A stretch of DNA of 64,000 nt from Dehalococcoidia bacterium (GTDB lineage: Bacteria > Chloroflexota > Dehalococcoidia > GIF9 > AB-539-J10). The translations under genes were made by a program, and so were the position numbers. Of the stretch, positions 2,813 through 23,669 are shown piece by piece. The notes beneath the pieces were generated by a model. That model searched no databases. It saw nothing but the letters and a program-made list of their open reading frames with translations, and was not told the DNA's origin. Positions within the stretch are counted from its first letter, which is position 1; each line of letters opens with the position of its first letter. The stretch covers positions 1 through 64,000 of the forward strand of contig JAFGFT010000019.1 of NCBI GenBank assembly GCA_016930935.1, in the 5' to 3' direction.

Positions 2813-4498
2813 CTACTTCTGTTCGGCATCCACCGAAGAGATAACGTACTCGTAGCGGATGGGGCCATCCAATACGACGTAAGAGTGGGTGCCGTTCGTC
2901 GAGCAGTGCAGCATCGGCTTCACGCTGTCGTCGGCAATCTTCGCAAGGTCGGCAACGTCTCGTAGAGAGACGATTCTGTCACCTTCAACGATTGCAGGGA
3001 GCCCACGCACGGCAACGACCATGTCGCGGTACTTCTTGGCGATTCCGGCCGCCTCGACTTCAGCAGGGCTAAGAAGTGCCGTCCTCAAACGCATCTCGCG
3101 CCAGACCAGATACGCCAGGCCCAACCCACCTATTGCCACACCGATAAGCCAGGGCGTCCGCCAGCCGCCGGGTGGCGCAGCCTCATTCGGCACTGTGCCT
3201 CCACCGACTTCGGCCTCTACAGTCTGTGACAGAGTCTCGTCGTCAACGGAAAAACTAGCCTTCTCAAGAGAACACTGCATCGTCTGGCTGAAGCTTTCAT
3301 TGATACGGCCAAGCCCGGTAGTGCCCGTCGTACGAACGGTCGCAGTAATACCAAGGGCGTGGGTTCCTCCCCTCACGCCGGTCTCTTCACCTATGGCGTC
3401 GATTACTGCCTTGTAGTAGGAGAGGTCAATCGGGAATGTGACTACGAAGTCGCCATTCTCGGTCTGCCTGGGCACAAGTGACAGCGTCTTCTCCCAGGTA
3501 TCTTCATTGACGATATTCACCGTCACTCCCACATCATGCTGCAGGTCGCTCACTGTCGAATCGCACTTGAAAGCGAAGGCGAACTCCCCATCGACATGAT
3601 GAATCAGATTGGGGAAGTACGTGTGGCCCGGCCCGAGAACCTGCATCGGTGCGGTTTCGGCGGGAAGGACTGGCTCTTCCTCCGGTTCAGCGACAGGCAG
3701 GCCCGAAGAGCGCAGTACGGGTTCATCAAACAGTTCGTTGCTCTTGAGGAATACGTCGTAGTCGAACCGGCTGGTGTGCGCCCAGCCAACCGGCGCATTA
3801 TTCACCTGCTCCGAATAGGCAAGAGGTTCATGCAGTTCGATCTGCTGGTTGTCAATCTCAAGTTCGATGCTGTGAACGTAGGTATCTTCAATCACCTGCC
3901 CGCCAACCGTCTCCGCCCGGACCTTCACAATGCCATCTATCCGGTACTCAACATTACCGGCGCTGATGTTAATGTCCTCTTCAATATCTTCGACTCTGTT
4001 CTCAACCGTGTCTTCCTCCAGGATGTAGTCGAGGACGAGCGGCAGAGAGCGCTGCGTATTGAAGAACCGAAGCACGTCCTTCTCCCAGACCTTGGGGTCG
4101 GTGGCATACACCACCACTTCCGCCTCTATGTCAGTGGACGCGAGCGGCTCATCGACATCAAGGTCATAGGTGAAGGTCATGTCGAATTCGTCGATGAGCG
4201 AGCGAAAGAACACATGACGAATCTCTTCCTCTTCTTCTTCTTCGTCTTCGGGTTCCACATCATCAACGACCGCCACTGCGTCAGGGTCAGGGAGAGGTGC
4301 GCTGCCATAGAGAGTGCTGGGCTTGAGCGACACTGAGTAGTCGAAGTGACCGGTCTGTGTGTAGGGTACGGAGGGGAGCGCGACCTCCCGTGGCGTGCGC
4401 AAGTCAGCAATCGCATTTGCACCGCTCACGAGAATCACAAGCGCTGCAACGCCAAAGCACACCACACGCCCAGGGAAAGTCCCCAGAAATCCCTTCAT
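2813..4498 (-). CDS. DUF5305-like single-pass membrane protein
   Basis: The product (561 aa) starts with a hydrophobic signal/anchor (about residues 8-30). A large extracytoplasmic region contains two related blocks, one near residue 47 (YTQTGHFDYSVSLKPSTLYG) and one near 245 (HTSRFDYDVFLKSNELFD). A single membrane helix follows near residues 455-475, and a cytoplasmic tail of about 90 residues ends the protein. The paired FDY..LK blocks and the membrane topology resemble DUF5305 proteins, which in several prokaryotes sit next to SipW-type signal peptidases. A run of nine glutamates and aspartates lies near residue 87. The gene follows the signal peptidase with 63 bases between them, so the two probably form one operon. 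ATG 4498 has AGGGG nine bases upstream; a TTG at 4507 is the alternative start. Function is unknown; a role as assembly or anchoring partner for the TasA-like proteins is inferred from context. Confidence 0.7.
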   Translation of the reverse strand: MKGFLGTFPGRVVCFGVAALVILVSGANAIADLRTPREVALPSVPYTQTGHFDYSVSLKPSTLYGSAPLPDPDAVAVVDDVEPEDEEEEEEEIRHVFFRSLIDEFDMTFTYDLDVDEPLASTDIEAEVVVYATDPKVWEKDVLRFFNTQRSLPLVLDYILEEDTVENRVEDIEEDINISAGNVEYRIDGIVKVRAETVGGQVIEDTYVHSIELEIDNQQIELHEPLAYSEQVNNAPVGWAHTSRFDYDVFLKSNELFDEPVLRSSGLPVAEPEEEPVLPAETAPMQVLGPGHTYFPNLIHHVDGEFAFAFKCDSTVSDLQHDVGVTVNIVNEDTWEKTLSLVPRQTENGDFVVTFPIDLSYYKAVIDAIGEETGVRGGTHALGITATVRTTGTTGLGRINESFSQTMQCSLEKASFSVDDETLSQTVEAEVGGGTVPNEAAPPGGWRTPWLIGVAIGGLGLAYLVWREMRLRTALLSPAEVEAAGIAKKYRDMVVAVRGLPAIVEGDRIVSLRDVADLAKIADDSVKPMLHCSTNGTHSYVVLDGPIRYEYVISSVDAEQK

Positions 4499-4561
4499 CT
4501 TGCGCAACCCCTGACCGAAGTCATTCTAGATGCCAATATATGCAGTGTCAACGGGGCAGAC

Positions 4562-5713
4562 TCAGCGCGCTTCGCGCAGGAACAACACAAGCCGCCCAAT
4601 GGCAGGAACTGTTCCTATCATCTTGCCCTTCAATTGTGCCGCAATCACGCGGTCGGAGTCTTCTTCTTTGTTCGCGTCGCCCTTCGTGACGAACTCGACT
4701 GTCTCCCCAGTGCCTTCAATCGCAACGACACGGTGAATGACCCTGATATCGCCGCGCCGGAAATCGATGATATCTCCTTCCTCAATCTCATTGACGCCAA
4801 CCTTGGCAGCGATGACCACGTCTCCGGGCTTGATGAGCGGCGTCATGCTGCCGGTAACCACGGTAGCCGGATACACAGGCAAGAGACCAAGAGAGAACCA
4901 GAAGAGTGCGAGCACCAGAACCGCTCCACCTATCCATCCTGCAACCGGGGACTCGCCGGTCTCCCTTGGGAGATTCTTGACAGAGCGAAGCCGACCGCTG
5001 GAGAGCATCTGGACGGCAGCAACGCCGAGTGCCGGCACCATGACGCCAAGCAGAGCTGTGATGCCCCAGGAAAGGTCGGGAAGCACAGGACTGAGCCACT
5101 CAAAAGCGAGCAGCGCGCCGCGATATGCAATGGCAGGTTTTGCCCCGCCAAGATAGGCCAGAACCGACGCCAGAGCGTTAATAGACAAAACGGGCACGAT
5201 AGTCTCGCCAAGGAAAGTCACCGCCGACCTCATCTGGGTCAACTGCGAAAACTGCGATGGCGCCAGGTCGAGTGAGGTAAAGAGGACGGCAACGAGACCG
5301 ATTACGAGAGACGGCCATTTCTTCCCGAGGCAGCACAGGATTCGGGCTCTGACCATCTCGGTCCCGATCAGCGTGGCGGCAACAACCCAGATATTACGCA
5401 CCACATCATCCGGCTGGTGCGAATACGGACTGTTGCCGAAACCGCTGAAGACACCACCCATGAGAAGCAGAAAGACGTGAAACCCACCAGCCATGAACCC
5501 GAAGGTGACAAGTTCCCGGCGAAGTCCGAACTTGCCGGCAGCAGAAACAGGCGGCAGGTAGTGTACAATCACTGCGAGCATCACCCAGTACAGCGGTACC
5601 ACGACGTACCCGAGGGTGCTACCCGGAATCTTACCGGGGGTCAGAAAGTGCAGGGTGGCATAACCACCAACAAGCAATCCGATAAGCAGGTAGGCGCCAC
5701 GGTTACTTTTCAT
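4562..5713 (-). CDS. SipW/ER-type signal peptidase I with extra polytopic N-terminal domain
   Basis: The product (383 aa) is a membrane serine peptidase expected to remove signal peptides from secreted proteins. The C-terminal ~130 residues carry the ER/archaeal/SipW-type signature: VTGSMTP with nucleophile Ser289, GDVV, a GDI segment, and RVIHRV with His327 in place of the bacterial Lys general base. TKGDAN follows, with the acidic residues of the Ser-His-Asp type. The N-terminal ~250 residues hold about seven or eight hydrophobic segments, whereas classical SipW has only one or two. The segment GTEMVRARIL faintly resembles the motif of CPBP-type intramembrane proteases but is not convincing. 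The gene is upstream of the DUF5305-like gene and divergent from the subtilase. The nearby cluster of proteins with SipW-type leaders makes these its likely substrates; that link is inferred. Confidence 0.85.
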   Translation of the reverse strand: MKSNRGAYLLIGLLVGGYATLHFLTPGKIPGSTLGYVVVPLYWVMLAVIVHYLPPVSAAGKFGLRRELVTFGFMAGGFHVFLLLMGGVFSGFGNSPYSHQPDDVVRNIWVVAATLIGTEMVRARILCCLGKKWPSLVIGLVAVLFTSLDLAPSQFSQLTQMRSAVTFLGETIVPVLSINALASVLAYLGGAKPAIAYRGALLAFEWLSPVLPDLSWGITALLGVMVPALGVAAVQMLSSGRLRSVKNLPRETGESPVAGWIGGAVLVLALFWFSLGLLPVYPATVVTGSMTPLIKPGDVVIAAKVGVNEIEEGDIIDFRRGDIRVIHRVVAIEGTGETVEFVTKGDANKEEDSDRVIAAQLKGKMIGTVPAIGRLVLFLREAR

Positions 5714-5929
5714 AATACCGCCGCTGTTCGATTCTACGCCGCGCCTTGGGGGTTTTCAACAGAATATCGACTGAACATCCGCCTACTTATGTCATCCCGT
5801 ACCAAGTTCGCGTACCCCTCTGGACTTTCCGGTCTATTCATGCGCGGTTCTCCGCCCTACCCTTCTTAATCATATTTAAGAGCACGAATCTCCCCCTGCA
5901 TTCAACCTACCTGGAGGTATCAGCAACCA

Positions 5930-8900
5930 ATGAGACACTTTGCCCGTCTTCTCACCGCAGTACTCTGTTCACTTCTATTCCTCGCACCGGGCGCGCCGTT
6001 GACGCAGACGGCCCACGCCAGCGACGGCAGAGGAGCTGAGCTTCTTGAAAACCGACTCGTTGTTCAGTTCGATGACGGCACAGATAGCCGTGAAATGGCC
6101 GCCGCGCACAAGCGCGCCGGCGTCACCGTCGTAGCCATGGTTCCCGAACTCAACACCTACGTTGTAGAGCTATCCGGAGGCTCGAAATGGCTTTCTTCCG
6201 CACTCTACAAGCTGGACAGCCATGTCGCGGGGGTGGAAGACGACCCCATCGCGTGCACCACTGAGGAGCCGAACGACCTCTACTACAACAACACCCAGGA
6301 GTGGGGACTCTTCAACATCGATGCCCAGGGAGCGTGGGAGGTCACCCACAGCAATCCCGACATCCGCATCGCGGTGCTCGACACCGGCATCCAGAGCACG
6401 CACCCCGACCTCGCGGACAAGATAGTCGCCGCAGCCGATTTCACCGGCAGCGGAACTCCTGAACCGGTCTCAAACACTCACGGCACACACGTTGCCGGCA
6501 TCGCCGCTGCCTCAACGAACAATGCTATCGGCGTCGCATCAATCGGCTACAACGCGAGCCTGATGAACGCCAAGGTCATGAACGAAAGCGGCACGGGCTA
6601 CTACTCCTGGATAGCCGCAGGCGTCATCTGGGCCACAGACAACGGCGCAGATGTCATCAACATGAGCCTCGCCGGAACCAGCAATTCTTCGCTGCTGGCG
6701 AATGCAATCGACTACGCGTGGGAACACGGAGTAGTCGTAGTAGCCGCTGCCGGCAATGATAGCAGTACCACCCCGTACTATCCCGCAGCCGACCCCGATT
6801 GCATCTCGGTCGCAGCTTCCAACAGAACCAACGTCCTCGAGTCGTGGTCCAACCATGGCTCGTGGGTAGACGTCTCCGCGCCTTCATCCGCATACTCGAC
6901 CAGAATCAACTCAAGCTACACCGCGATGCAGGGCACGTCCATGGCCTCGCCTTACGTCGCCGGTCTCGCCGCCCTGGTGCTCGACGTGGTATCCGACACG
7001 AACGGCAACGGCCGCACCAATGACGAAGCCAGGACCGCCATCGAGTCCACGAGTGTCGATTTCGGCACGGACGTGAAGTACGGCCGCATCGATGCGGCCG
7101 CGGCAGTCGCTGCGCCAACCCCACCTTCTGAAGGAGAAGTATCCGGCACAGTGCTGGAGGCAGCCACCTCGAATCCGCTCGAAGGCGTCTCCGTCACTGA
7201 CGGCACGCGCTCAACCACCACAGACAGCCAGGGCTTCTACTTCCTCTCCAGCGTCCCTCCCGGCACGTACACCATCGCCGCAAGTGCGGACAACTACGTC
7301 CCGGCGTCGCAGGACATCACCGTTGTTGCCGGGGAGACCGCAACTACAGACTTCTCGCTCGAACCCGTGCCTGCGCCCAACCAGGCGCCAGTCCTCGACG
7401 CCATCGGCAGCCTTTCAGTAGAAGAGAAGGAGTCGCTGGAATTCTCCGTCACCGCCTCGGACCCCGACGATGACGCACTGAGCTATTCGATCGACGGTCT
7501 GCCGGAGGGCGCGACCTTCGTTGACCCGGTATTCTCATGGACGCCTGCCGTCGGACAGGCGGGAAGCTACAACGTGACGTTCACCGTTTCCGACGGTGCA
7601 CTGACGGACGAAGAAACCGTCACCATCAACGTTGAGCAGATACCCCCATACGGGACGGTGACAGGCACGGTCACGGACATCGTCAGCGGGGAACCCATAG
7701 CGGGTGCTCTCGTCTCCAATGGCGAGACATCGGCTATCACAGGCGTGCAGGGCACCTATACGATGACGAGCGTCTTCGCAAGCGAATGGACGTTTACCGC
7801 CCGGGCCGACCGCCACGTAGACGCCGCAAAGGACGCCACGGTCGTCGCGGGTGACACGACCACCGTGGATTTCACCCTCGAGCCGATTCCGAACACCCCT
7901 CCTGTCCTGGAGTACATCGGCGACAGGATTGTCGCTGAGGAAGAGATGCTCAGCTTCACTGTGTCCGGCTCTGACGCCGAGGGTGACAGCCTCTCCTATA
8001 CGACGTCGGTTCTGCCTGACGGAGCGTGGTTCCAGGACCGGCGCTTCTCCTGGACTCCCTCTCTTGACCAGAGCGGCATCTACAGCATCACATTCACCGT
8101 ATCCGACGGCGTTCTCTCCGACTCGGAGACAATCGCCATCGATGTTCTGGACGTGCAGAAATGCGGTTCCATCGGGGGAACAGTCAGCGACGCCTCGTCG
8201 GGTACGCCCATCGCAGGCGCGACGGTATCGGCAGCCGGCACTTCCACTATTACGTCCGCATCGGGCACGTACACGCTGGCCGATATCTCGCAAGGCGTCT
8301 GCTTCGTGGATGTGTCGGCAACCGGCTACGTTTCCTCTTCACGGGACGTGACCGTCACCGCCGACAAGGTGTCGTCCGCCGACTTCACTCTCGACCTTCT
8401 CCCGAAAAATGCACCGGTCCTCGTCACGATTGGCGACAGGACCGTGGAAGAGACGCAGACACTGGAAATCACTCTCTCAGGTACGGACGCCGACGGCGAC
8501 AGCCTGACGTATTTGGCAGGACAACTGCCCAAGGGCGCCAGTTTCGCAGGCCAGGCGTTCTCCTGGACTCCGGTCGAGGGACAGGCGGGCACCTGGGAGG
8601 TCACCTTCACGGTCACCGACGGCACACTCTCCGCGTCAGAAACCGTCACCATCACGGTCACACCGGTCCAGCAGACCCCGGACGGCGCAATGTGGACTGA
8701 GAGCATCGATTTCTACGCCATCGGCACCCCCACACCCACCATGCTGCGCGTTATCGTGTCCGTGGTGAATCCCGACCCTCTCAAGGACGCCCTCGTGTTC
8801 GTTGACATTGCGGACTCCAGCGGAGCCGTACGTCACCTCTACACAAGGACAGACAGCCTCGGCCAGGCGAACTATCTCCTGCGCAACCCCGCCCCCATCA

Positions 8901-10354
8901 CCTATACCGTCACCGTTTCCAGGGTGCTGCACGCCGACTACACATGGTACACATGGTCGGAAGCACTGGGCGTCACCGAGAAGAGTTTCCTGGTCGGCGA
9001 GCCACCGGCGTACGGCCGCGTGCAGGGACAGGTCACGTCGGCCGCCGACGGCCAACCGATAGTCAATGCAACCGTCACTGACGGAACGCGCACCTCTACT
9101 ACCGACTCCATGGGAATGTACGCTCTCAACGATGTGCCCGCAGGCGACAACTGCATTGTCAGCGCCTCAGCGGACGGATACGTGACGAACTCATGTGAGG
9201 TCTCAGTCCTGGCCGATAGCACCACCACGCACAACATCACGCTGCAACCGGTGCCAAACACCGCTCCCTCTCTTAACGCCGTCGGGAGCAAGGCCGTGGA
9301 CGAGGGCGAGACGCTCCAGTTCTCCGTCTCGGCAACCGACCCGGACAACGACCCTCTGTTCTTCTCGGCCACAGGGCTTCCGGATGGCGCGGCGTTCGCA
9401 GGACAGACCTTCTCATGGACACCGGCTGTCGGCGACGCCGGCATGTACGAAGTAACGTTCGAGGTCAGCGACGGAGAACTCTCCGATGCCGAAACCATCC
9501 ATATCACCGTCAACGCAGTGCCGCAGTTTGGCACCGTGTGGGGGACCATCAGCGACATCAACACGGGAGCGCCTGTTGAGGGTGCAAACGTGTGCGTTGG
9601 GAGCGTGTCAGACACGACGGGTGCGAATGGCGACTACGAGTTGCGCGGCATTCCCGCCGGAGCGTGGTCCGTCAGCACAAGCGCTGACGGCTACTACGAG
9701 GTTTCGCGCACCATCACGGTCGCCGGGAACGACCGCATCAGCGTGGACCTGCACCTGGAACCCCTGCCCAACGACCCACCGGTGCTTGAACTCATCGGCG
9801 ACAAAGACGTGGTCGAAGAAGAGGCGCTGGAGTTCACTGTTTCCGCCTTCGATGCGAATGACGACGCACTCTCCTACGATGCTGAAGGCCTGCCACAGGG
9901 AGCCTCATTCGAAGGGCAGACGTTCTCATGGACGCCCAACGCGGGCCAGGCAGGCAGTTACGACGTGACGTTCACCGTTTCAGACGGCGAGGATTGTGAC
10001 ACGAAGACAATCACCATCACCGTGAACGAGGCGCAGGAAGCACCTGCTGATGGCATGTGGGTTGAGTCCATCAACTTCTACGCGCTGGGCGACCCCACGT
10101 CGATGCTGCGCATCGTCGTCTCGGTGGCAACTCCGGAACCACTGGCAGATGCCCTCGTTTTCATCGACATCACCACTCCTTCCGGCAAGACGAGCCACCT
10201 CTACACCAGGACGGACAGCCTCGGCCAGGCCAACTACCTGCTGCGAAGCCCCGCCCGGGGCGAGTATCGGGCCACGGTGACACGAATCATGTGCGGTGAC
10301 TACACGTGGGACACCACGCGAGGCACTGTTTCACAGAACTTCACTCTGCCATAG
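5930..10354 (+). CDS. Secreted modular subtilase with repeated carboxypeptidase-regulatory-like and Ig-like domains
   Basis: The product (1474 aa) is a secreted S8 serine endopeptidase. A Sec signal peptide covers residues 1-30 (cleavage after AHA) and is followed by an inhibitor-I9-like propeptide. The catalytic domain has Asp151 (VLDTGIQSTHPDL), His184 (NTHGTHVAG), oxyanion Asn276 (AAGND) and Ser337 (GTSMASP). From about residue 405 on there are five pairs of a carboxypeptidase-regulatory-like domain and an Ig/cadherin-like domain ending FSWTP..GQAG..F.VSDG. A ~100-residue domain of unknown family follows pair three and again ends the protein; both copies contain HLYTRTDSLGQANYLLR. No sortase or S-layer anchor is seen. 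ATG 5930 has GGAGGT eleven bases before it. The gene is divergent from the signal peptidase and convergent with the TasA-like cluster, so it may process or shape those surface proteins; this is inference. Confidence 0.92.
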   Translation: MRHFARLLTAVLCSLLFLAPGAPLTQTAHASDGRGAELLENRLVVQFDDGTDSREMAAAHKRAGVTVVAMVPELNTYVVELSGGSKWLSSALYKLDSHVAGVEDDPIACTTEEPNDLYYNNTQEWGLFNIDAQGAWEVTHSNPDIRIAVLDTGIQSTHPDLADKIVAAADFTGSGTPEPVSNTHGTHVAGIAAASTNNAIGVASIGYNASLMNAKVMNESGTGYYSWIAAGVIWATDNGADVINMSLAGTSNSSLLANAIDYAWEHGVVVVAAAGNDSSTTPYYPAADPDCISVAASNRTNVLESWSNHGSWVDVSAPSSAYSTRINSSYTAMQGTSMASPYVAGLAALVLDVVSDTNGNGRTNDEARTAIESTSVDFGTDVKYGRIDAAAAVAAPTPPSEGEVSGTVLEAATSNPLEGVSVTDGTRSTTTDSQGFYFLSSVPPGTYTIAASADNYVPASQDITVVAGETATTDFSLEPVPAPNQAPVLDAIGSLSVEEKESLEFSVTASDPDDDALSYSIDGLPEGATFVDPVFSWTPAVGQAGSYNVTFTVSDGALTDEETVTINVEQIPPYGTVTGTVTDIVSGEPIAGALVSNGETSAITGVQGTYTMTSVFASEWTFTARADRHVDAAKDATVVAGDTTTVDFTLEPIPNTPPVLEYIGDRIVAEEEMLSFTVSGSDAEGDSLSYTTSVLPDGAWFQDRRFSWTPSLDQSGIYSITFTVSDGVLSDSETIAIDVLDVQKCGSIGGTVSDASSGTPIAGATVSAAGTSTITSASGTYTLADISQGVCFVDVSATGYVSSSRDVTVTADKVSSADFTLDLLPKNAPVLVTIGDRTVEETQTLEITLSGTDADGDSLTYLAGQLPKGASFAGQAFSWTPVEGQAGTWEVTFTVTDGTLSASETVTITVTPVQQTPDGAMWTESIDFYAIGTPTPTMLRVIVSVVNPDPLKDALVFVDIADSSGAVRHLYTRTDSLGQANYLLRNPAPITYTVTVSRVLHADYTWYTWSEALGVTEKSFLVGEPPAYGRVQGQVTSAADGQPIVNATVTDGTRTSTTDSMGMYALNDVPAGDNCIVSASADGYVTNSCEVSVLADSTTTHNITLQPVPNTAPSLNAVGSKAVDEGETLQFSVSATDPDNDPLFFSATGLPDGAAFAGQTFSWTPAVGDAGMYEVTFEVSDGELSDAETIHITVNAVPQFGTVWGTISDINTGAPVEGANVCVGSVSDTTGANGDYELRGIPAGAWSVSTSADGYYEVSRTITVAGNDRISVDLHLEPLPNDPPVLELIGDKDVVEEEALEFTVSAFDANDDALSYDAEGLPQGASFEGQTFSWTPNAGQAGSYDVTFTVSDGEDCDTKTITITVNEAQEAPADGMWVESINFYALGDPTSMLRIVVSVATPEPLADALVFIDITTPSGKTSHLYTRTDSLGQANYLLRSPARGEYRATVTRIMCGDYTWDTTRGTVSQNFTLP

Positions 10355-10378
10355 CAGCAGAACGAGTACATACACTGA

Positions 10379-10403
10379 GAGCGGGGCCATAGTGGCCCCG
10401 CTC
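10379..10403. terminator. Perfect GC-rich hairpin between convergent genes
   Basis: GAGCGGGGCCA and TGGCCCCGCTC form an 11-bp perfect stem with a three-base loop. It lies 24 bases after the subtilase stop and 26 bases beyond the stop of the convergent TasA-like gene, so it probably ends both transcripts. It lacks a clear U-tract. A very similar hairpin follows the paralogous gene at 16700-16726. Confidence 0.7.
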
Positions 10404-10429
10404 CCGGGTCTCACGCAAAAGTCCCGTTT

Positions 10430-11623
10430 CTACGGATCGAGTGCTATGAAGACCGTCTGGTAGCTAGTACCATCCTGGCAGATGACCGCCGCGAGTTGTC
10501 CGGCCCCTGGCACGAACGTCGCACCGTTCGCCTCCGCGTCATCGATGATGCCCTGTGCCGTGGCATCAATATTGGTAACAATGCCACCCCACAGGAAGTA
10601 CCAGAACGCAACCTGCTGGGGCGAACCGGCAAGAACTTGTCCGTATGGCGCTATATTCACAGTCTTGCCGGACGGATAGTCCAGTGCCATGTACGCGGGT
10701 TGGTTCAAGACCCAGTTGATTTTGTTCCAGGCGGCAATGGTATTGAATGGAGCCTCAAGTGAAGACAGCAACGTGATGTCAACACTCAGCACCACGGAGT
10801 CCTCCGCCTCGCAGCACCACGCGTCCATTGGCTGTGGCTCCAACAGTATTAGGTCGGGCACCACGCCCTGACTTGGATCCGTCTCGCTGAACGTCGCCAG
10901 GAAGGACCCACCCGGGCCGTTCCAGTTACTGTCCAGATCCAGGTGCACCTTGTAGTCAGGCAGGTCCATGACCTTCTGAACGTCGGGTTCGCACAGGTTC
11001 CACTGGATGGCTTCGAGCTCCAACCTGACGCTACCGGTCACACCGCGGAGCGACATGTCCTGCGGAATTTCGGCGTAGACGTTCACCTCGAACGTCTCGC
11101 ACTCGTGGAGCTGGTACTCATCGTCAACGACGAACCTGGTGGCACCTCCGCCGTGGGTGATGGAACCGTCAGGCCAGACTATCTCCCACCACACGTACGG
11201 AATCAGTGCGTCCGGCACGACGACGAAGTCCGTCACACTCACGTGCGCCGGAACACCGTAGTAGTGCACCAACAGGTCAGCCTTGAACAGCGGTCCGGGG
11301 AAGATGTTGTCGAACATCATGAACGCAGTGTCTTCCTCGACGTCGTATTCATCGACGTACGCCGAGGCGACGTAGAGATAGTTCAGGTCAATCATCTCCT
11401 TTTCGCTGAACTTCTCGGTTCCCTCAACCAAGTCACCGTTGCTCAGGTTCTTGTACACGTAGGTCGCGGAGGTGTCCTCAATGACGAGGTTCACCTCGCC
11501 CATCTCTACGATGCCCTGTACGACAAGGTCGTCCGTCCACGAGGCGAAAGCCGCGCCGCAGAGTCCCACGGCCAGAACCGCAGCCATGGTCATGAGACCG
11601 AGTCTACCGAGTTTGCTTCTCAT
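10430..11623 (-). CDS. TasA/camelysin-like secreted protein 1 (large form)
   Basis: The product (397 aa) begins with a basic start (MRSKLGRLG), a hydrophobic stretch and GAAFASWTDD, the pattern of SipW-dependent TasA/camelysin leaders. The mature part has a beta-rich ~200-residue domain. Its landmarks are NIFPGPLFKADLLVHYYGVPAHV, an ECETFEVNVYAEIPQD block and ELEAIQWNLCEP, the positions shared by all seven paralogs here. A C-terminal extension of about 180 residues is shared only with the paralog at 16752-17933 and ends GAGQLAAVICQDG.SYQTVF. ATG 11623 has AAGGAGG six bases upstream. It follows paralog 2 with 27 bases between, so they are co-transcribed. TasA proteins form extracellular fibres; a fibre or surface-layer role here is inferred. 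Confidence 0.75.
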   Translation of the reverse strand: MRSKLGRLGLMTMAAVLAVGLCGAAFASWTDDLVVQGIVEMGEVNLVIEDTSATYVYKNLSNGDLVEGTEKFSEKEMIDLNYLYVASAYVDEYDVEEDTAFMMFDNIFPGPLFKADLLVHYYGVPAHVSVTDFVVVPDALIPYVWWEIVWPDGSITHGGGATRFVVDDEYQLHECETFEVNVYAEIPQDMSLRGVTGSVRLELEAIQWNLCEPDVQKVMDLPDYKVHLDLDSNWNGPGGSFLATFSETDPSQGVVPDLILLEPQPMDAWCCEAEDSVVLSVDITLLSSLEAPFNTIAAWNKINWVLNQPAYMALDYPSGKTVNIAPYGQVLAGSPQQVAFWYFLWGGIVTNIDATAQGIIDDAEANGATFVPGAGQLAAVICQDGTSYQTVFIALDP

Positions 11624-11650
11624 GCCATTCCTCCTTTTGCGCTACTTCGC

Positions 11651-12379
11651 CTAGTCAATGAGCGGATACTCGTTCCACTGGACCATGTTGATGGTGGTGG
11701 TGAAGCCGCCGGTCTTGTTCATGAGCGTGTTGTCCTGCGGGACATGAATCCACCACTCGATCATGACCCTGTCACAGTACTCGAGCTGGAGTCCTTCCAG
11801 GTCGACCATGACCCATCCTGGTGTGGTACCTGCAGCGTCTTCCCACTTGTAGGCGACCATGTAGAACTCGGGCGCCGAAGTCATGTTCCAAAGAGCCGCA
11901 AGCCACTCACTTTCGTCACCGAACTCCATTGTCGGACTCAGCTTCGCCGGCACGCTGCCGATGTAGTGCAGCACGATGTCGGCTTTGAACCAGACGCACG
12001 GGAAGAGGTTGTTGAACTTCACCTCGAACGACTGGCCTTTGCCCTGGATGCAGTTTCCCTCATCAAGCATGCCCGGAAGTTGCCCCGTCCAATCAGCGGA
12101 GGCGACAGGCAGCAGGATGTCTGCAGACACGTCGAGTTCCTCCGGCGAGACCAAGACGTCGCCGGGTTCATACGTTTCGTCATCAAACTCGTACTGCTGG
12201 AGCACCTTGTACACCCAGGTCTCAGAGAACCCGCAGATCTCGTAGCCGAGACTACCGGTGGTCACCTCACCCTCGATGCTGACCTGGTCGGTCCACGACG
12301 CGAAGGCCGCGCCCATGGTGCCGACTGCAAACACAAGGGCCAACATCAGCATGCCGACCTTACTTACTCTGCTTCTCAT
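11651..12379 (-). CDS. TasA/camelysin-like secreted protein 2 (small form)
   Basis: The product (242 aa) starts MRSRVSKVGML, then a hydrophobic core and GAAFASWTDQV. The mature domain has the core positions of this local family: NNLFPCVWFKADIVLHYIG, YCDRVMIEWWIHVPQDN, LMNKTGGFTTTI and a final QWNE. It is closest to the small protein at 17968-18621, sharing NLFPCVW, LHYIG, CDRV and QWNE. ATG 12379 has GGAGG seven bases before it; an in-frame upstream extension has no ribosome binding site and would bury the signal. It is the first gene of a two-gene operon with TasA-like protein 1 and is preceded by a structured leader. Confidence 0.75.
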   Translation of the reverse strand: MRSRVSKVGMLMLALVFAVGTMGAAFASWTDQVSIEGEVTTGSLGYEICGFSETWVYKVLQQYEFDDETYEPGDVLVSPEELDVSADILLPVASADWTGQLPGMLDEGNCIQGKGQSFEVKFNNLFPCVWFKADIVLHYIGSVPAKLSPTMEFGDESEWLAALWNMTSAPEFYMVAYKWEDAAGTTPGWVMVDLEGLQLEYCDRVMIEWWIHVPQDNTLMNKTGGFTTTINMVQWNEYPLID

Positions 12380-12566
12380 TTCATTTCCTCCATGTAGTGA
12401 TGCCGTCTGCGGCCGCTTTTGCGACCGCCGGCAGGACCACCCGCACCGACCGCGCCCCACGCCGGGCACATGAACCCTCCGGGCGCGCACGGGCCTCCAT
12501 TGTTGTCCACTATCCTGCCGGGCATCATGTCAGTCACTTCCCTTGGATTCCTTGCGTTCCGTGAAC
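12380..12566 (-). promoter_or_regulatory. Structure-prone leader of TasA-like gene 2 (element A)
   Basis: This 187-base gap carries, on the minus strand, GC-rich blocks that recur before the neighbouring paralogs. They include TGATGCCCGGCAGGATAG (compare TGATACCCGGCAGGACAG in leader B), CCCGGCGTGGGGCGCGGTC, and the core GGTCGGTGCGGGTGGTC near 12436-12453. The arrangement suggests a folded 5' UTR with a conserved core. No U-tailed terminator is seen, so control at the level of translation or by RNA stability would be expected. The ligand or partner is unknown. Confidence 0.45.
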
Positions 12567-13415
12567 CTATTCAGCCCACTGTTCGGCATCGATGGTGATA
12601 AGGAACTCACAATCAGCGTTCTGTGGCATCACCATCAGACCGTTCGGCCCCTCAATGTCCTGCTCAAAGTGCCAGTTGAGCTGAAGCCACAGGGTGTGGC
12701 ACGGCTCAAGCTGGAAGGGCTTACCTCCCTCCCATCCGGAGAGGAAATACTCCAGTCCTGCTGCACCTTGCATGCCTGTGTAGGTGGGTCCATTCGTCAC
12801 ACCGCTACAGGTAGTTGCATCGTGGACACACCACCACCAATCGTGCAGTTCAAGCCACTGCAAGACGGAGCAGTCTGTGGCACCCACCGGTTCAAAGTCC
12901 ACGTCAACGATGTGCAGCGGAATCGAGCCGTTGTTGGCAATGCAGATGACCACGCCACTGGCGTACCACGGATAGGCATTGTGTATCTCCTCACGAATGG
13001 CACCGTAGAACGGAGCAGCATCCCCGAGCAGGTGCACGTCCTTGTTGAAGCGCAAGCTATCGGTGACGTTGTAGCTGTTCGTCGAGGCGACGTTCTTGAA
13101 TTCCTCGTTGGTAGCGGATCCAAACTGTGGGTCAGGACTGCCGTTGGTCCACGGATCGGTGGGCGGGTTTCCGGGATAGAGCATACCCCCCTCTTCCGGC
13201 AGATAGTTTGGCCCCCAGTCAAGGTCCACCATGTAGTTGAGGTCCTGCAAGCCGGTCGCGGTCACGTCACAAATGCCGACCTGGAAATCAGCGGTTGTCA
13301 CAACGCCATTGACCACCAGTTGGTCAGTCCAGGACGCGAACCCTGCGCCCATAACGCCAACCACAAGGACAAGCGCCACCATCAATACACTGACCCTTCC
13401 CAATCTGTGTTTCAT
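12567..13415 (-). CDS. TasA/camelysin-like secreted protein 3
   Basis: The product (282 aa) begins MKHRLGRVSVLM with a hydrophobic core and GAGFASWTDQL, a SipW-type leader. The mature region starts VVNGVVTTADFQVGICD. It includes IREEIHNAYPWYASGVVICIANNGSIPLHI, a variant of the N.FP...D..LHY.G..PA block of the other paralogs, and an EPCHTLWLQLNWHFEQD segment before a C-terminal AEQW. It is most like the protein at 14630-15520 (both have REE..N.YPWY and MP..A). ATG 13415 has GGAGG ten bases upstream. Leaders flank it on both sides, so it may be its own unit. Function is inferred from family only. Confidence 0.7.
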   Translation of the reverse strand: MKHRLGRVSVLMVALVLVVGVMGAGFASWTDQLVVNGVVTTADFQVGICDVTATGLQDLNYMVDLDWGPNYLPEEGGMLYPGNPPTDPWTNGSPDPQFGSATNEEFKNVASTNSYNVTDSLRFNKDVHLLGDAAPFYGAIREEIHNAYPWYASGVVICIANNGSIPLHIVDVDFEPVGATDCSVLQWLELHDWWWCVHDATTCSGVTNGPTYTGMQGAAGLEYFLSGWEGGKPFQLEPCHTLWLQLNWHFEQDIEGPNGLMVMPQNADCEFLITIDAEQWAE

Positions 13416-13557
13416 CTTCTATCTTCCTCCAAATCTCGTACCCGTTGCAGGCACCGCCCGTCTCGACCGTGCAGCGGGGTGCAGGCCCGCGCCTCCACCT
13501 CTGCTGCCTCCGGGCACATTGTCTTCTGTCCTGCCGGGTATCACCTCAGTTCTTCCC
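13416..13557 (-). promoter_or_regulatory. Structure-prone leader of TasA-like gene 3 (element B)
   Basis: The 142 bases before gene 3 contain, on the minus strand, TGATACCCGGCAGGACAG, GTGCCCGGAGG, the core GGTCGAGACGGGCGGTG near 13452-13470, and CCTGCAACGGGTACGAGAT shortly before the Shine-Dalgarno. The core and the last block recur almost base for base in the leader of gene 4. GCCCG and CGGGC could close a helix around the core. It is read here as a conserved cis-acting RNA; nothing identifies what it senses. Confidence 0.5.
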
Positions 13558-14301
13558 CTATGGCAGGGGCGGGGCTCCGGTCCACTCGTTCCACTGGATG
13601 GCGTTGATGTCAACGCCCCACTGGGCACTCAGGTTCTGGAGGGCGTTGTCCTGCGGGATGTTCATGATTACCTCAAGCAGCAGGTAGTCACAGTAGTGCA
13701 TCTGCCAGCCGTTGTAGAGGTTGATCCTGCCAGGCCCCCAATCTGAATCTATGGACGCGTCAGGCTCGAACACACCCGTTTCAGGGTCGTAGTCACCTAT
13801 CGTGGCGGTGTCGAAGATGGCCCGCGGAGTCACGGTTGAGTAGTCCCAGCCCATGATGTCAGTCAACGCTAAGTCGCCTGTCTTGAAGGTCTCATAGGCC
13901 CAGACCTCCGCCGGGATAGAGCCGTTGTAGTGCAGCAGGACATCTGCAACAAAACTCTCATACGGGAAGATGTTGGTTGCCACACCCACTACGTCGGCGA
14001 CCTCATCAGTTCCCGCCTCACGCATGTAGAATGACGCAATCTCTATGCCGCCCGCAGGCGCGCCGGGGAACTCGTCCATCCAGCCGTGCCAGTCGACCGT
14101 CTCATTGTTATCACCGCCCGGCACCTTCCAGACATACGTTCCCGAGTACCTGACTACTTCAAGGTCCAGGGTGCCCGTATCGACCTCTCCGGTAATCTGG
14201 ACCTCGTCCGTCCAGGACGCGAACCCCGCGCCCATGACGCCCACCACAAGGACAAGCGCCACCGTCAGCAGCCCAATCTTTCCCAGTCTATGTTGTTTCA
14301 T
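13558..14301 (-). CDS. TasA/camelysin-like secreted protein 4
   Basis: The product (247 aa) starts MKQHRLGKIGLLT, with a hydrophobic core and GAGFASWTDEV. The mature domain has TNIFPYESFVADVLLHYNGSIPAEV, YCDYLLLEVIMNIPQDNALQN and a terminal AIQWNEW, matching the shared positions of the local family. Among the seven it is the plainest single-domain form and close in length to Bacillus TasA. ATG 14301 follows GGAGGAGG at a normal distance. It has a long leader with two copies of the conserved core. Extracellular fibre formation is an inference from TasA. Confidence 0.75.
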   Translation of the reverse strand: MKQHRLGKIGLLTVALVLVVGVMGAGFASWTDEVQITGEVDTGTLDLEVVRYSGTYVWKVPGGDNNETVDWHGWMDEFPGAPAGGIEIASFYMREAGTDEVADVVGVATNIFPYESFVADVLLHYNGSIPAEVWAYETFKTGDLALTDIMGWDYSTVTPRAIFDTATIGDYDPETGVFEPDASIDSDWGPGRINLYNGWQMHYCDYLLLEVIMNIPQDNALQNLSAQWGVDINAIQWNEWTGAPPLP

Positions 14302-14629
14302 CTCTAATCCTCCTCCAATATCTATCTCTTGCCCGTTGCAGGGACTACGGCATCTCCGCCCGACTCACCGGGAGAAGTCACCTCGCTCCCGCACACAGGA
14401 CCGCCCGTCTCGACCGCGCCCCACCTCTCTCCGGCGGGCACGCCCGGGCAACGGTTCCCCTGCCCTGTGCGGGCTTCATCAAGTCACTCCACCTCGTCCC
14501 CATATTCGCAGGTGTGCCTTACCGGGCTTGCGCCCGACCGCCCGGGACCGACCGGCCCCAACGAACCCCCCTGGCCCCCGGACGACTCGGCAGTTGTATT
14601 CATATGGTTCTTCAACATCCTCTGTTGCA
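14302..14629 (-). promoter_or_regulatory. Long leader of TasA-like gene 4 with two core copies (element C)
   Basis: These 328 bases hold no gene. On the minus strand the core appears twice: GGTCGGTCCCGGGCGGTC (near 14534-14553) and GGTCGAGACGGGCGGTC (near 14401-14418). The downstream copy is preceded by GTGCCCGCCGGAGAGAGG and GGGGCGC. CCCTGCAACGGGCAAGAGAT lies just before the ribosome binding site, almost as in leader B. The two cores suggest a tandem arrangement of the same RNA element. A promoter must also lie in the distal part but is not clear. Confidence 0.5.
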
Positions 14630-15520
14630 CTACGAAACTTCACACCAGAGACTGGCAATGACCTCAAGTTCGAGGGAGATGTTCGCGCCTTCCGGCATCG
14701 GCGTGCCCCCGGAGACATCCACGAAGTAGACGGCGACGCCAAGCTCAAGCGCCTCTCCCGGCTCCAGTTGTACCGGCCCGCTGTTGAGCCACGTGGCGAG
14801 GAACTCCTCGAGGGCAGGCCCGGTCTTGAAGGCATAGTCATCGCCCCAGCTATCCGCCACACTGCCTTCACTCCACAGAACCGCATCCCAGTGGTCCACC
14901 AGCGCGAATGGAAGGGCACCGGAAGGGTCGAGGACGTTCAGGACGTCCATGCCCTCAACGTTGATTGGCAGCGTGCCTCCATTGCCGAACACGAGCGTCG
15001 TGCCCGTCAGGTACCATGGATACACGTTGTTGAATTCCTCCCGCACGCGGCCATAGAAGGGCATGAAGCTCATGTCCTTCACATCTTCAAGGTCGAACAA
15101 CCACGGCTCCAGGTTGGTGCTGTGGGTGGACGCAAGATTGGGGATGGTGACAATAGCGGGTTCAACCTTCGGCAGCAGGGCCGGCAGTATCACCGCCGCG
15201 CCGGCAGGAATGAAATAGCGCGCCACGGCGCTCCGAGCCACCATCTGGACACGGTTGTCTATCGTTCCGTCAAAGGGGGAATTCACAGGGAAGGCGGCCC
15301 CACCCGGCTCCAGGTAATTGGGACCGGGGTCCCAGGAAGCGTAGTCGTAGATGCCGTACTCCACGTTTCCTGTCGTGACGACCGCGTCCACCACAACGTC
15401 GTCAGCCCAGTATGCGAAGGCCATGCCCATCGCCGATAGCGCGACAACCGAGGTCATCACCACTATCCCGACAAATGCAGTCCTGCGCCTCCTCACGGCC
15501 TTCCCCACTCCTTCACGCAT
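14630..15520 (-). CDS. TasA/camelysin-like secreted protein 5
   Basis: The product (296 aa from this start) has an arginine-rich N-terminus, a hydrophobic core and MGMAFAYWADDVV, a variant of the A-S-W-T-D leader in which AYWAD is even closer to camelysin. The mature part has REEFNNVYPWYLTGTTLVFGNGGTLPINV and an ELGVAVYFVD segment, resembling TasA-like protein 3. The start is uncertain: ATG 15520 has a weak GGGAG 14 bases upstream, whereas GTG 15496 has AAGGAG and gives a leader of the same length as the paralogs. An upstream TTG at 15544 lies in the U-tract of the terminator and is unlikely. Its expression probably depends on read-through of that terminator. Confidence 0.68.
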   Translation of the reverse strand: MREGVGKAVRRRRTAFVGIVVMTSVVALSAMGMAFAYWADDVVVDAVVTTGNVEYGIYDYASWDPGPNYLEPGGAAFPVNSPFDGTIDNRVQMVARSAVARYFIPAGAAVILPALLPKVEPAIVTIPNLASTHSTNLEPWLFDLEDVKDMSFMPFYGRVREEFNNVYPWYLTGTTLVFGNGGTLPINVEGMDVLNVLDPSGALPFALVDHWDAVLWSEGSVADSWGDDYAFKTGPALEEFLATWLNSGPVQLEPGEALELGVAVYFVDVSGGTPMPEGANISLELEVIASLWCEVS

Positions 15521-15541
15521 CAGGCGTACCGTTACTCCCTG

Positions 15542-15660
15542 CAAAAAGACAAAACCGCCCTCTCACCGAGGCCGGTTTCGCCACTGGCTCCGCGCACCCC
15601 CGGCGACCAGATCGCGGGGCACGCATCAACGCCTCCTCTAGTTGTTGACGCCTCTGTCAG
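15542..15660 (-). promoter_or_regulatory. Putative riboswitch-like element with intrinsic terminator before TasA-like gene 5 (element E)
   Basis: On the minus strand a ~70-base block (core 15586-15655) contains GGAGGCGTTGATGCG, GGTCGCCGG, GCGCGGAGCCA and TGGCGAAACCG. It is nearly the same as the tandem blocks at 19036-19198. It runs straight into a hairpin (AACCGGCCTC / GAGGGCGGTT, one mismatch) followed by TTGTCTTTTT, which ends some 22 bases before the ATG. A conserved block joined to a terminator right before the start codon is the layout of a transcription-attenuating riboswitch. It matches no riboswitch class I know. Confidence 0.55.
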
Positions 15661-15687
15661 TATTCTCTCTGCTTGTCTCTCTCCCTG

Positions 15688-16122
15688 TCAGTAGACTCTG
15701 GATGCTGAACCCTCCGGCGTACAGGCAAACCCGCCCGCCGAAGTCAGGTTTCTCTCTTCCTTCGTGGACCGTGACAACAACATCCTTACCCTCGCCAGCA
15801 TCTCCCGCGCATCCAGCGGCATAGGAAGATAGGCATCCGCCCCCATCTCCAGGAATGGGACCCCGGCAACCTCTTCATAGTCATCGCCGAGCACGATTTT
15901 CGGCATGTCGAACAACCGGAACATCTGCCGCGCCACCCCACAGTCACACATTGCCGGACAGTGCTGCGCGACAATCACCAGGTCGGCCTCAGACCGGCGC
16001 TGCCCAACTGCCACATTCCGGCTTCCCACCCCCACATCAACCTGATAGCCGGTATGGCGGAGAAAAAACGCGATTCGCTCCCGGCGTTCACAGTCGGGGT
16101 CCAGCAGCAGTATCCGTTGCAT
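15688..16122 (-). CDS. Stand-alone pseudo-receiver (response-regulator-like) protein
   Basis: The product (144 aa) has the length and fold pattern of a CheY-like receiver: beta1 RILLLDPD, a helix, beta3 DLVIVAQ, a GDDYEEV loop, GADAYLPMPLDAREMLARVRMLL at the end. The phospho-acceptor Asp is missing (alanine about position 52 in DLVIVAQHCPAM), and the conserved lysine is replaced (YLPMP, Met101). It therefore probably does not work by aspartyl phosphorylation. It has a short C-terminal tail and no DNA-binding domain. It lies between the two TasA-like sub-clusters and directly upstream of element E. ATG 16122 starts the recognisable fold; a TTG twelve codons earlier is possible. Confidence 0.65.
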   Translation of the reverse strand: MQRILLLDPDCERRERIAFFLRHTGYQVDVGVGSRNVAVGQRRSEADLVIVAQHCPAMCDCGVARQMFRLFDMPKIVLGDDYEEVAGVPFLEMGADAYLPMPLDAREMLARVRMLLSRSTKEERNLTSAGGFACTPEGSASRVY

Positions 16123-16751
16123 GACCCAATCCAACACATTGCAAGGGTGGCTCAACACACTGGTGGGTACAGTGCAACGGAAGAGGAGAATGGTGGAAGA
16201 ATGGAAGCAAAAGGTCGCGGCAGGGTATAAATTGGTGCCTATCTGGTCAACGCGACAACGATGGCTCGACGGAGGGATTCTCTGTCATCGCCTTCATCAC
16301 ATTCTCTGCACCACCACCCTGCGGCACTATGGAATCGAGCCGGGGTGGTGGCCGCCAATGTCGACACGATTATCGGCAGTGCGAACCGTTCAACAAGACC
16401 TCGTTCCCGAACCCATGGCTCCGGACGCAACTACCGCGGTCGGCACATGAAGATGCCGACTTTTCCCGGTCAGCCTCTCACATTGTCCTTCCTCCTCACC
16501 ACACGCATTCTGCATCTGTCACGTGGCCTGTTGCACAGGGAGACGTTGGCCTGTGCTTCACGCCTGCGCGGAAGCCTGTTCACCTCTTCCGCACTCCGAA
16601 CGGAGCGGCGCCTCAAGGCATTGACGGACACGTATGCCGCGCCACACAGTGCCGAGAGCGAACCGTCCTTCGGCAGCACAGACCGTGAAACGGGACTGCG
16701 AGGGCGGGGCCAGTGGCCCCACCCTCACGCTATCGCGCCGGTCTCAAGACG
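16123..16751. other. Intergenic gap between TasA-like gene 6 and pseudo-receiver gene
   Basis: These 629 bases contain no open frame I can support on either strand. They include the terminator hairpin at 16700-16726 and, at the left end, the presumed promoter of the pseudo-receiver gene, which is not clear by eye. Several frames are open only because of the base composition. Confidence 0.4.
16700..16726. terminator. Hairpin after TasA-like gene 6
   Basis: GAGGGCGGGGCCA and TGGCCCCACCCTC make a 13-bp stem with one C-A mismatch. It sits 25 bases beyond the stop codon of the minus-strand gene. It resembles the hairpin at 10379-10403 after the paralogous gene, which suggests that gene and terminator were duplicated together. 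Confidence 0.6.
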
Positions 16752-17933
16752 CTACGGGTCAATCTCCACGAAAACGGTCTGGTAGCTGATGCCATCCTGA
16801 CAGATGACTGCCGCCAACTGGCCGGCTCCGGGGATGAAACCTGCAGAGTTCGCGTTGGCGTCCGCGATGAGGACCTGCGAGATGTCCGCCGCAGGGGGTG
16901 ACCAGCCACCCGGCTGGTAATTCCAGTACGCCCGCTGCCGCGCGGAGTGGGTCATCACTCCCGAGAGCCCGCCCACTGTCATCTGGAGCCCGTCGAAGTT
17001 GTACGGCGGGTCACGATACGCGGGCCGGTTCAACAGGTAGTTGATGGGCTCCCATGCAGGCATTCCTATGGTCGAGATGAGCGTCACGTCGAGTTCCACA
17101 ACTGAGGATGTCTCGAACTCGAAGCACCATGCCGGCCACGGGTTGCCGAGCTCCAGCCACTCATACCCTGCGGGTACGCTGCTGAAGTACGCGTCGAAGT
17201 ACGACCGCGGAGAACCGTACGAGTCAAGCGTCGGCGAGTACGCGCCCTGCAACACAAGGTGTACCGGTGTAGACGGCAGGTCGAGTACTTTCTGCACGAC
17301 CGGCTCGCACAGGTTCCACTGGACCGCCTCCATGGCGAACGAGACACTCCCTGTCAGGCCCTGCACTGCCGGGTCCTGCGGAAGTTGTGCGTAGATGTTG
17401 ACCTCGAACTCTTCGCACTCGTGGACCTGGTAGTAGCCGTCCACGATGAACAAGAGAGTGTCCATCGCCCCTGATGACGTGGTGCCGTCAGGCCAGACAA
17501 TCTCCCACCACACATACGGGGCAAGCTCCGGGGGCGCGACGTCGAAGTTCTCGAGCGTCACGTGAGCAGGGACGCCATAGTAATGAATGAGAAGGTCTGC
17601 CTTGAACAACGGTCCGGGGAACAGGTTGTCGAACAGGACGGTGGCCGTGTCGTTCAGAACGTTCTCCTCGTCAGCGATTGCTTGCGCCGAGGCGATGAGC
17701 TTGTAGTCAGGATCAATCATCTCCTCTTCAAGCACGACTATCCCGCCGGTCGAGAGAATCTTGTACACGAGCGTCTCAGACGTGTCCTCGATAACAAGGT
17801 CGACTTCACCGGTTGAGACCGTTCCATGTACGACAACTTCGTCCGTCCACGAGGCGAACGCACCTCCGCACAGTCCCACGCCGAGGACCATGGCCATGGT
17901 CATGAGGCCCAGTCTTCTGAGTCTGCTTCTCAT
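16752..17933 (-). CDS. TasA/camelysin-like secreted protein 6 (large form)
   Basis: The product (393 aa) is the full-length paralog of protein 1: MRSRLRRLGLMTMAMVLGVGL, a leader ending GGAFASWTDEV. Further matches are NLFPGPLFKADLLIHYYGVPAHVTL, a HECEEFEVNIYAQLPQD block, MEAVQWNLCEP and the C-terminal GAGQLAAVICQDGISYQTVF. The region between the TasA-like domain and the C-terminal block differs much more from protein 1 than the ends do. ATG 17933 has GGAGGT five bases upstream. It follows paralog 7 by 34 bases, in the same small-then-large order as genes 2 and 1, so these two pairs look like copies of one unit. A surface fibre or coat role is inferred. Confidence 0.75.
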   Translation of the reverse strand: MRSRLRRLGLMTMAMVLGVGLCGGAFASWTDEVVVHGTVSTGEVDLVIEDTSETLVYKILSTGGIVVLEEEMIDPDYKLIASAQAIADEENVLNDTATVLFDNLFPGPLFKADLLIHYYGVPAHVTLENFDVAPPELAPYVWWEIVWPDGTTSSGAMDTLLFIVDGYYQVHECEEFEVNIYAQLPQDPAVQGLTGSVSFAMEAVQWNLCEPVVQKVLDLPSTPVHLVLQGAYSPTLDSYGSPRSYFDAYFSSVPAGYEWLELGNPWPAWCFEFETSSVVELDVTLISTIGMPAWEPINYLLNRPAYRDPPYNFDGLQMTVGGLSGVMTHSARQRAYWNYQPGGWSPPAADISQVLIADANANSAGFIPGAGQLAAVICQDGISYQTVFVEIDP

Positions 17934-17967
17934 GCCACACCTCCATTCAGCCAATCAGTCGCGGGAC

Positions 17968-18621
17968 TCACGGAGCAGGTTCGTTCCACTGAGTGTTGGT
18001 GATGGTGCAGGTGAACGAGCCGCTCTTGCTCATGAGCTCATCAAGCTGGTCGAGGTGGAACCAGAACCAGAGCTTGACGCGGTCGCAGAACTCCCACTGG
18101 TAGTAGAAGGGCTCGCTCATGAAGTCGATCTCCTCCAAGGTGTCATAGTTGTAGGCCTCGATGGACATCGTTTCGCCGAGCAGGGGGTCGCCCTCCCACT
18201 CACAGTCGACGGTCAGGTGCGCAGGGATACCTCCGATGTAGTGCAGACCTATGTCGATGCCGTGCCAGACACAGGGGAACAGGTTCCAGTACACGACCTC
18301 GAATGTCGGAGGAACCTCTATCTCGCGTCCTTCCGAAGCATCGAACGGGTCGACATCTACGATATCGGCATAGGAGACGAGCAGCATCTCGGGCGGTATG
18401 GGATCGAGAGGAGCGCCCAACGTAACGACTTCATCAGTCACAAGGTCCTTGTAGACCCAGACCTCAGAGAGTTGGTAGATCCTCCAGCCAAAATCCGCGG
18501 TGGTGACCGTACCCGACACAACGACTTGATCCGTCCAGGAGGCGAAGCCCGCGCCCATGACAGCAACGGCGAACACCAGCGCCAACATGAGCATTCCAAC
18601 CTTTCCCAATCTTCCTCGCAT
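17968..18621 (-). CDS. TasA/camelysin-like secreted protein 7 (small form)
   Basis: The product (217 aa) begins MRGRLGKVGMLMLALVFAV and has the leader end GAGFASWTDQV. Mature landmarks are NLFPCVWHGIDIGLHYIGGIPAHL, FCDRVKLWFWFHLDQ, LMSKSGSFTCTI and a terminal QWNE, matching small protein 2. The N-terminal twenty residues are nearly those of protein 2 (VGMLMLALVFAV), as expected for a recent duplication or for selection on the signal. ATG 18621 has AAGGAG seven bases before it. It is the first gene of a pair with protein 6 and is preceded by the longest leader of the locus. Confidence 0.75.
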   Translation of the reverse strand: MRGRLGKVGMLMLALVFAVAVMGAGFASWTDQVVVSGTVTTADFGWRIYQLSEVWVYKDLVTDEVVTLGAPLDPIPPEMLLVSYADIVDVDPFDASEGREIEVPPTFEVVYWNLFPCVWHGIDIGLHYIGGIPAHLTVDCEWEGDPLLGETMSIEAYNYDTLEEIDFMSEPFYYQWEFCDRVKLWFWFHLDQLDELMSKSGSFTCTITNTQWNEPAP

Positions 18622-23650: not shown

Positions 23651-23669
23651 CATGGCAGGGGGTGGAGAG

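Follow-up and report, generated by a model that had tools for sequence, protein, structure and literature searches.

What do seven related secreted proteins, encoded together with a Ser-His signal peptidase, form at the surface of a Dehalococcoidia bacterium? The question is raised by a 64,000-nt stretch of GenBank contig JAFGFT010000019.1 (the window; contig 30 of a 2.38 Mb genome with 83 contigs), where seven minus-strand open reading frames (P1 to P7), the signal peptidase (Sip) and a membrane protein of the DUF5305 family lie close together (Table 1; positions are numbered over the whole window). The original prediction had taken this for a system secreting TasA-like proteins in a Chloroflexota-like organism, and we find support both for the TasA-like subunits and for the Chloroflexota host. 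On the evidence of the sequences, the locus is a conserved export system of fibre type whose relative is AbpX and, probably at a greater distance, TasA. The seven TasA/AbpX-like proteins, which Sip is predicted to mature, probably exchange donor strands and so form a surface fibre of mixed composition. As judged by sequence comparison, four features set it apart from known systems of the TasA/AbpX kind: the long peptidase, the partner protein DUF5305, the occurrence of fusions and the degenerate regulators.

Seven TasA/AbpX-like proteins

The seven proteins align end to end over a leader and a beta domain, with 13 invariant columns and pairwise identities of 16-55%. All seven (7/7) have a leader that ends in A-[SY]-W-[TA]-D and share the beta domain, as had been proposed from the sequence, but the other landmarks then named vary between the paralogs: NLFP is N[LIAV][FY]P across them, LHYIG is literal in P2 and P7 only, and QWNE, literal in P2, P4 and P7, is QWNL in P1 and P6, QWAE in P3 and LWCE in P5. 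Existing family models stay under their cut-offs, with 18.5 bits at best (P1; cut-off 22.5) for the camelysin/TasA Pfam family M73 (PF12389) and 17.7 bits (P2; cut-off 19) for the SipW-dependent leader TIGR04088, which five of the seven match at E <=1. The camelysin model had 0 matches in the window's own genome, a first contig scan with the seven-protein profile gave 26 pattern matches and 0 confirmed ones, and in the C-terminal extension of P1 (10430-10990, with a matching end in P6) nothing exceeded a Pfam cut-off.

A family profile of 49 aligned bacterial and archaeal members, from which 30 of 72 profile hits had been excluded, was searched against 177,635 distinct PDB sequences. AbpX, described as a donor-strand fibre of Pyrodictium abyssi (PMC11952670), came out on top (9sj2, E 1.6e-15; 9rhp, 2.4e-10), followed at ranks 3-4 by TasA, which was not significant (8aur, E 0.065; 5of1, 0.084). 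With a profile from the seven window proteins alone, AbpX was the sole PDB match, at E values of 0.0099, which is borderline, and 0.25.

The match to 9sj2 starts with a Trp that is residue 2 of the chain, and the stretch x-W-[ST]-D-x5-G-x-V-x-T-G found after our leaders also opens the AbpX chain. In 9rhp the same Trp stretch is located at the C-terminus (residues 159-174), which would fit a strand-complemented construct. The second residue after the predicted cut is Trp in all 49 aligned sequences, although not in every profile hit: of the 30 excluded, at least 12 have Trp, and in about 11 its place is taken by Met, Ile, Phe or another residue. In TasA the donor strand comprises residues 28-38, and F29 is buried in the next subunit (PMC9674648); the family Trp corresponds to F29 in position. 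Another donor-strand fibre described as TasA-like is cited in PMC9674648 and PMC9715654.

The Trp leader was also found on proteins whose bodies fall outside the sandwich profile (L043 8517-9107, L044 1119-1604 and L053 3026-3598), and further small proteins with a different body carry it at L030 6842-7432 and L049 9250-9942; these different bodies often start GFWKNW or similar. The leader cassette looks like a portable tag. The count behind this excludes the duplicate loci L029, L031, L032, L033, L131 and L136; among ten cassette-only rows, two look like chance (L044 2556-2750, L051 7507-7782), and at L034 1-288 the contig end truncates the gene.

A long signal peptidase and a DUF5305 partner

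The proposal of a dedicated Ser/His signal peptidase of the endoplasmic reticulum type is supported. Sip exceeds the cut-off of TIGR02228, the archaeal-type signal peptidase I (Table 1), and scores 56.2 bits against the Bacillus SipW equivalog NF046067, under its cut-off of 190. Ser289 and His327 are invariant in 34/34 aligned long relatives, an alignment that excludes L049, L059 and L064. At its N-terminus Sip has a polytopic membrane domain of approximately residues 1-255, with E119 present in 33/34 and R122 and P209 in 34/34 of these sequences; a simple hydropathy scan of the window protein gave about six hydrophobic segments, the last at 260-278. The domain lies outside all Pfam families. 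A search with it led to 17 relatives, which are other signal peptidases or unannotated proteins of 239-422 residues and carry PF10502 only, PF02080 in one case, or no domain. This conserved, predicted membrane domain of about 255 residues on the peptidase is new here, and we call the form that carries it the long Sip.

The window's genome has another signal peptidase (L042), of Ser-Lys type by sequence. An aromatic residue at P2' is missing in 143 verified substrates of the Escherichia coli Ser-Lys enzyme LepB and slows that enzyme (PMC10269814). Since Trp at P2' is thus of a residue type that Ser-Lys peptidases handle poorly, it would explain why the genome keeps a dedicated enzyme beside its Ser-Lys copy.

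The neighbouring membrane protein belongs to DUF5305, as had been suggested, with a score far over the family cut-off (Table 1). It is predicted to start with a membrane segment, to expose two beta-sandwich domains in tandem on the outside and, after another membrane helix, to end in a small domain on the inside; the outer domains are Ig/FnIII-like. A literature search of open-licence PMC papers found no paper on DUF5305, and nothing linking Dehalococcoidia with TasA.

Co-occurrence in Bacteria and Archaea

Peptidase, DUF5305 and paralogs keep company well beyond the window, which is what the original prediction had led one to expect. We surveyed 294 genomes of the window's class. The long Sip occurs in 11 of them and TasA-like genes in 14. 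In 11/11 genomes with the long Sip the TasA-like genes lie on its contig, whereas 3/283 genomes without it have such genes (G169, G279 and G297; Fisher 1.2e-17). Neither search profile contained G141, G172, G195 and G197, which are among the 11. DUF5305 is present in 30/294 genomes, 29 of which also have a Sip match (Fisher 2.7e-14); it occurs together with TasA-like genes in eight (Fisher 9e-6) and without TasA-like matches in 22. Among a set of 61 relatives, Sip was over the cut-off in seven, DUF5305 was over its cut-off in eight (the same seven and G004), and paralogs were found in six, all within the seven Sip-positive genomes.

A second comparison used 80 loci, split into 29 with long and 51 with short peptidases according to whether the profile match starts before residue 130 (L059, with 282 residues, was counted as long); some are stretches of surveyed genomes (L043 is G035, L044 is G036, L045 is G033, L046 is G299, L049 is G001, L060 is G102 and L075 is G179). 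TasA-like genes at 1e-3 accompany 21/29 long peptidases against 5/51 short ones, and DUF5305 accompanies 19/29 against 1/51. The long Sip with TasA-like genes was also found in records titled Thermoplasmata, Hadesarchaea, Archaeoglobaceae, Thermoprotei, Bathyarchaeota and Culexmicrobium.

The gene order recurs in related genomes. In G035 (L032), of the window's family, an OmpR-type regulator, a receiver, three leader proteins, the peptidase and DUF5305 follow each other with no subtilase, in G003 (L030) the order is regulators, leader proteins, peptidase and DUF5305, and on the short contigs of G033 and G036, both of the window's family, the peptidase and DUF5305 adjoin leader proteins. Seven is not a singular family size, as had been supposed, and we rejected it as a unique number: G179 has nine paralog matches over three contigs, and six lie next to the peptidase of L046. 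L046 and L047, from records titled Deltaproteobacteria, are closely related loci. We rejected a Deltaproteobacteria host for L046, which is contig C35 of G299 and is placed in the window's class.

Some loci also encode large proteins with a weak TasA-like match at the N-terminus and a membrane segment at the C-terminus (L044 1714-3600, L030 1540-3147, L036 2649-4268 and L041 2286-3860). These are candidate fibre anchors; no such gene lies beside the window locus.

Fusions and a possible mechanism

In two Hadesarchaea metagenome-assembled genomes, Sip and a TasA-like domain are encoded in one frame (L050 1242-3113, 623 residues; L052 2267-4120, 617 residues). The peptidase spans approximately residues 5-384 and is followed by a second hydrophobic stretch and the TasA-like domain, which in L050 occupies residues 437-602 behind an internal leader ending A-Y-S-H-W-S-D. 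Such a chain could possibly be a self-processing polyprotein, and with peptidase and likely substrate in one molecule the two chains offer a natural minimal system. Nine genomes of the class (G093, G118, G134, G173, G182, G199, G203, G215 and G232) have their Sip and DUF5305 matches in a single open frame; a Pfam search of translated open reading frames confirmed the fusion for G118 (L125; DUF5305 31.1 bits) and added a tenth in G081 (L126; 50.7 bits), whose peptidase region scores as Peptidase_S24. Both kinds of fusion argue that the partners work together, and support a coupling between them without fixing their exact roles.

These observations suggest the following scheme. The preprotein would exit through Sec and remain tethered by its hydrophobic leader until Sip cuts at A-x-A|x-W, with Trp at P2'. 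The freed x-W-[ST]-D-x5-G-x-V-x-T-G would then act as donor strand and fill the groove of the next subunit, and the membrane domain of Sip with DUF5305 may provide a platform that couples cutting, subunit release and chain growth. Because the family Trp coincides with the F29 site of TasA and with residue 2 of AbpX and is of a kind adverse to LepB, the same residue would both demand a special peptidase and plug the fibre, and as routing mark and strand-exchange plug at once it would directly link secretion with assembly. In bacteria and archaea, biofilms are held together by donor-strand fibres of this TasA/AbpX type. For the coupling of cutting, release and growth, the genes described here draw attention to two as yet unstudied partners, the domain fused to Sip and DUF5305. 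Tentatively, one may go a step further and regard the long Sip itself as an usher-like, cleavage-coupled fibre assembler of Bacteria and Archaea, whose N-terminal domain, with its conserved ExxR pair, would, with DUF5305, hold and cut each subunit and pass its Trp strand to the previous one, the Trp-leader tag docking even unrelated bodies.

One mixed fibre or several

The tree of the paralogs places P1 with P6 (support 100/100), P2 with P7 (99/94) and P3 with P5 (99/99), and therefore the window set grew mostly by duplication on the window's own line; P4 groups with a gene of G001, of the same genus, at moderate support (84/90, not a starred branch). These recent duplications, the 16-55% identity and the regulator gene between P5 and P6 would also suit a repertoire in which each paralog forms its own homopolymeric fibre or adhesin under different conditions. 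We regard this as doubtful. P2/P1 and P7/P6 are two-gene cassettes of a small and a large gene with gaps of <30 bases, in agreement with the pairing noticed originally, and according to the tree two of the sister pairs arose by duplication of such a cassette, with small and large partner kept together. At least two divergent paralogs are also present at nearly all TasA-positive long-Sip loci (L066 has one at 1e-3); subunit types that split deep in the tree are thus retained at one locus, which fits a fibre with several kinds of subunit. Furthermore, TasA and CalY are reported to co-assemble in Bacillus cereus (PMC13082335).

The fold of the subunits bears on whether there is a strand-exchange polymer at all. 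In the AlphaFold2 model of P2 (predicted local distance difference test 82.6, predicted template modelling score 0.72) a leader helix is followed by a beta sandwich from residue 46. In a fold comparison (VIA-align) TasA stood mid-table among unrelated sandwiches and AbpX was not listed, so that the match is not distinctive, and Foldseek with the P2 and DUF5305 models returned nothing at E 0.001 or better. This generic sandwich, together with the weak Pfam camelysin matches (<=18.5 bits), leaves some room for an S-layer-like coat or camelysin-like surface proteins that share nothing but the leader type with TasA and form no polymer through strand exchange. Such a coat is nevertheless unlikely, since the AbpX profile match (1.6e-15) covers the N-terminal Trp stretch of a protein called a donor-strand fibre (PMC11952670), and residues 29-45 of the P2 model, ahead of the first core strand at 46, form neither strand nor helix. 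It is highly improbable that the neighbourhood is partly accidental, with the peptidase and DUF5305 serving many exported proteins near a recent paralog expansion: the 22 class genomes with DUF5305 but no TasA-like match, and the subtilase as an unrelated gene entering the locus, would allow it, yet the long Sip accompanies TasA-like genes in 11/11 class genomes and several archaeal records, and enzyme-substrate fusions exist.

Regulators

Our preferred reading of a mixed fibre would leave the control of its genes to two receiver-like proteins. At the site of the phospho-acceptor Asp, the OmpR-type proteins of the window and four related sequences carry Ala, Cys, Cys, Tyr or His (5/5), and in the stand-alone receivers the residue is Ala or Arg (6/6); the OmpR-type regulators at four other Chloroflexota loci all retain Asp (4/4). 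The locus regulators thus likely act without phosphorylation, and would control the genes without a kinase. At the loci of the same family, too, the genes for the subunits are preceded by an OmpR-type regulator.

Comparison with known systems

AbpX (9sj2, 9rhp), compared here at the level of the protein, resembles the window proteins in its beta-domain profile and its N-terminal W-S-E-x-L, with Trp at mature residue 2; the window differs in being bacterial, with seven paralogs and an adjoining long peptidase and DUF5305. The TasA-SipW-TapA system of Bacillus subtilis likewise has an aromatic P2' after the leader, a dedicated Ser-His peptidase and, towards the close of its beta domain, QWN. However, the sequence similarity is not significant, and the window has Trp for Phe, the extra peptidase domain of about 255 residues and DUF5305; no TapA-like gene was recognised there.

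It had been stated that known systems have one or two substrates, which does not agree with published accounts: B. cereus SipW is reported to process TasA, CalY and CapP (PMC13082335), and the sipW-bsaABCRSD operon of Clostridium perfringens is described as encoding a two-component system as well as four putatively secreted proteins (PMC7395162). In B. cereus several SipW substrates are encoded in one region and two TasA paralogs co-assemble according to that source, but its paralogs are fewer than in the window, where the CapP chaperone was not recognised. The C. perfringens operon, as described, combines peptidase, several secreted proteins and regulators, but its two-component system is a true one, whereas the window has atypical receivers and no kinase gene was noticed there.

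Layout of the locus

Read as transcribed, the locus opens with the OmpR-type regulator, which is followed by P7, P6, the receiver, P5, P4, P3, P2, P1, the subtilase (plus strand), Sip and DUF5305. The seven paralogs said to be adjacent are real genes, but their row is interrupted by the receiver-only regulator between P5 and P6. The starts of P2, P5 and P6 were set at a start codon later than in the mechanical open reading frame.

Table 1. Genes and subunit features of the locus
Feature	Position	Strand	Evidence
DUF5305 membrane protein, 564 residues	2813..4507	-	Pfam DUF5305 (PF17231) 109.5 bits, cut-off 29
Sip, long Ser-His signal peptidase	4562..5713	-	TIGR02228 69.6 bits, cut-off 51.85
Modular subtilase	5930..10354	+	Peptidase_S8 155.4 bits
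P1, TasA/AbpX-like subunit; C-terminal extension of ~180 residues, common to P6	10430..11623	-	
P2, TasA/AbpX-like subunit, sister of P7	11651..12379	-	
P2 leader, residues 1-27	12299-12379	-	
P2 predicted donor strand, S28-W29-T-D...T-T-G	12251-12298	-	
P3, TasA/AbpX-like subunit, sister of P5	12567..13415	-	
P4, TasA/AbpX-like subunit, groups with same-genus G001 gene	13558..14301	-	
P5, most divergent subunit, sister of P3; alternative start codon possible at 15544	14630..15520	-	
Stand-alone receiver without phospho-acceptor Asp	15688..16158	-	Receiver match and alignment
P6, TasA/AbpX-like subunit with C-terminal extension, sister of P1	16752..17939	-	
P7, TasA/AbpX-like subunit, sister of P2	17968..18621	-	
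OmpR-type regulator, receiver without phospho-acceptor Asp and winged helix	19579..20349	-	Profile and alignment

The large modular subtilase had been counted as part of the system. The gene is real, but we rejected it as a member, as it lies on the opposite strand and has no copy at the related loci scanned; it was the sole subtilase among the open reading frames of those loci in a two-motif scan.

The locus of G020 (L035 1896-5734) has regulators, a short peptidase and DUF5305, and no TasA-like match; it has instead a protein of 144 residues with a leader ending AAFATGMNF. Two window genes flanking the regulator side of the locus (21238-22572 and 23652-24488) have counterparts in G020 (L035 9547-10863 and 10983-11786), and from their motifs we take the pair to be folC-like and pyrF-like. 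G020 belongs to another genus of the window's family, and the common flanking pair suggests a shared genomic site.

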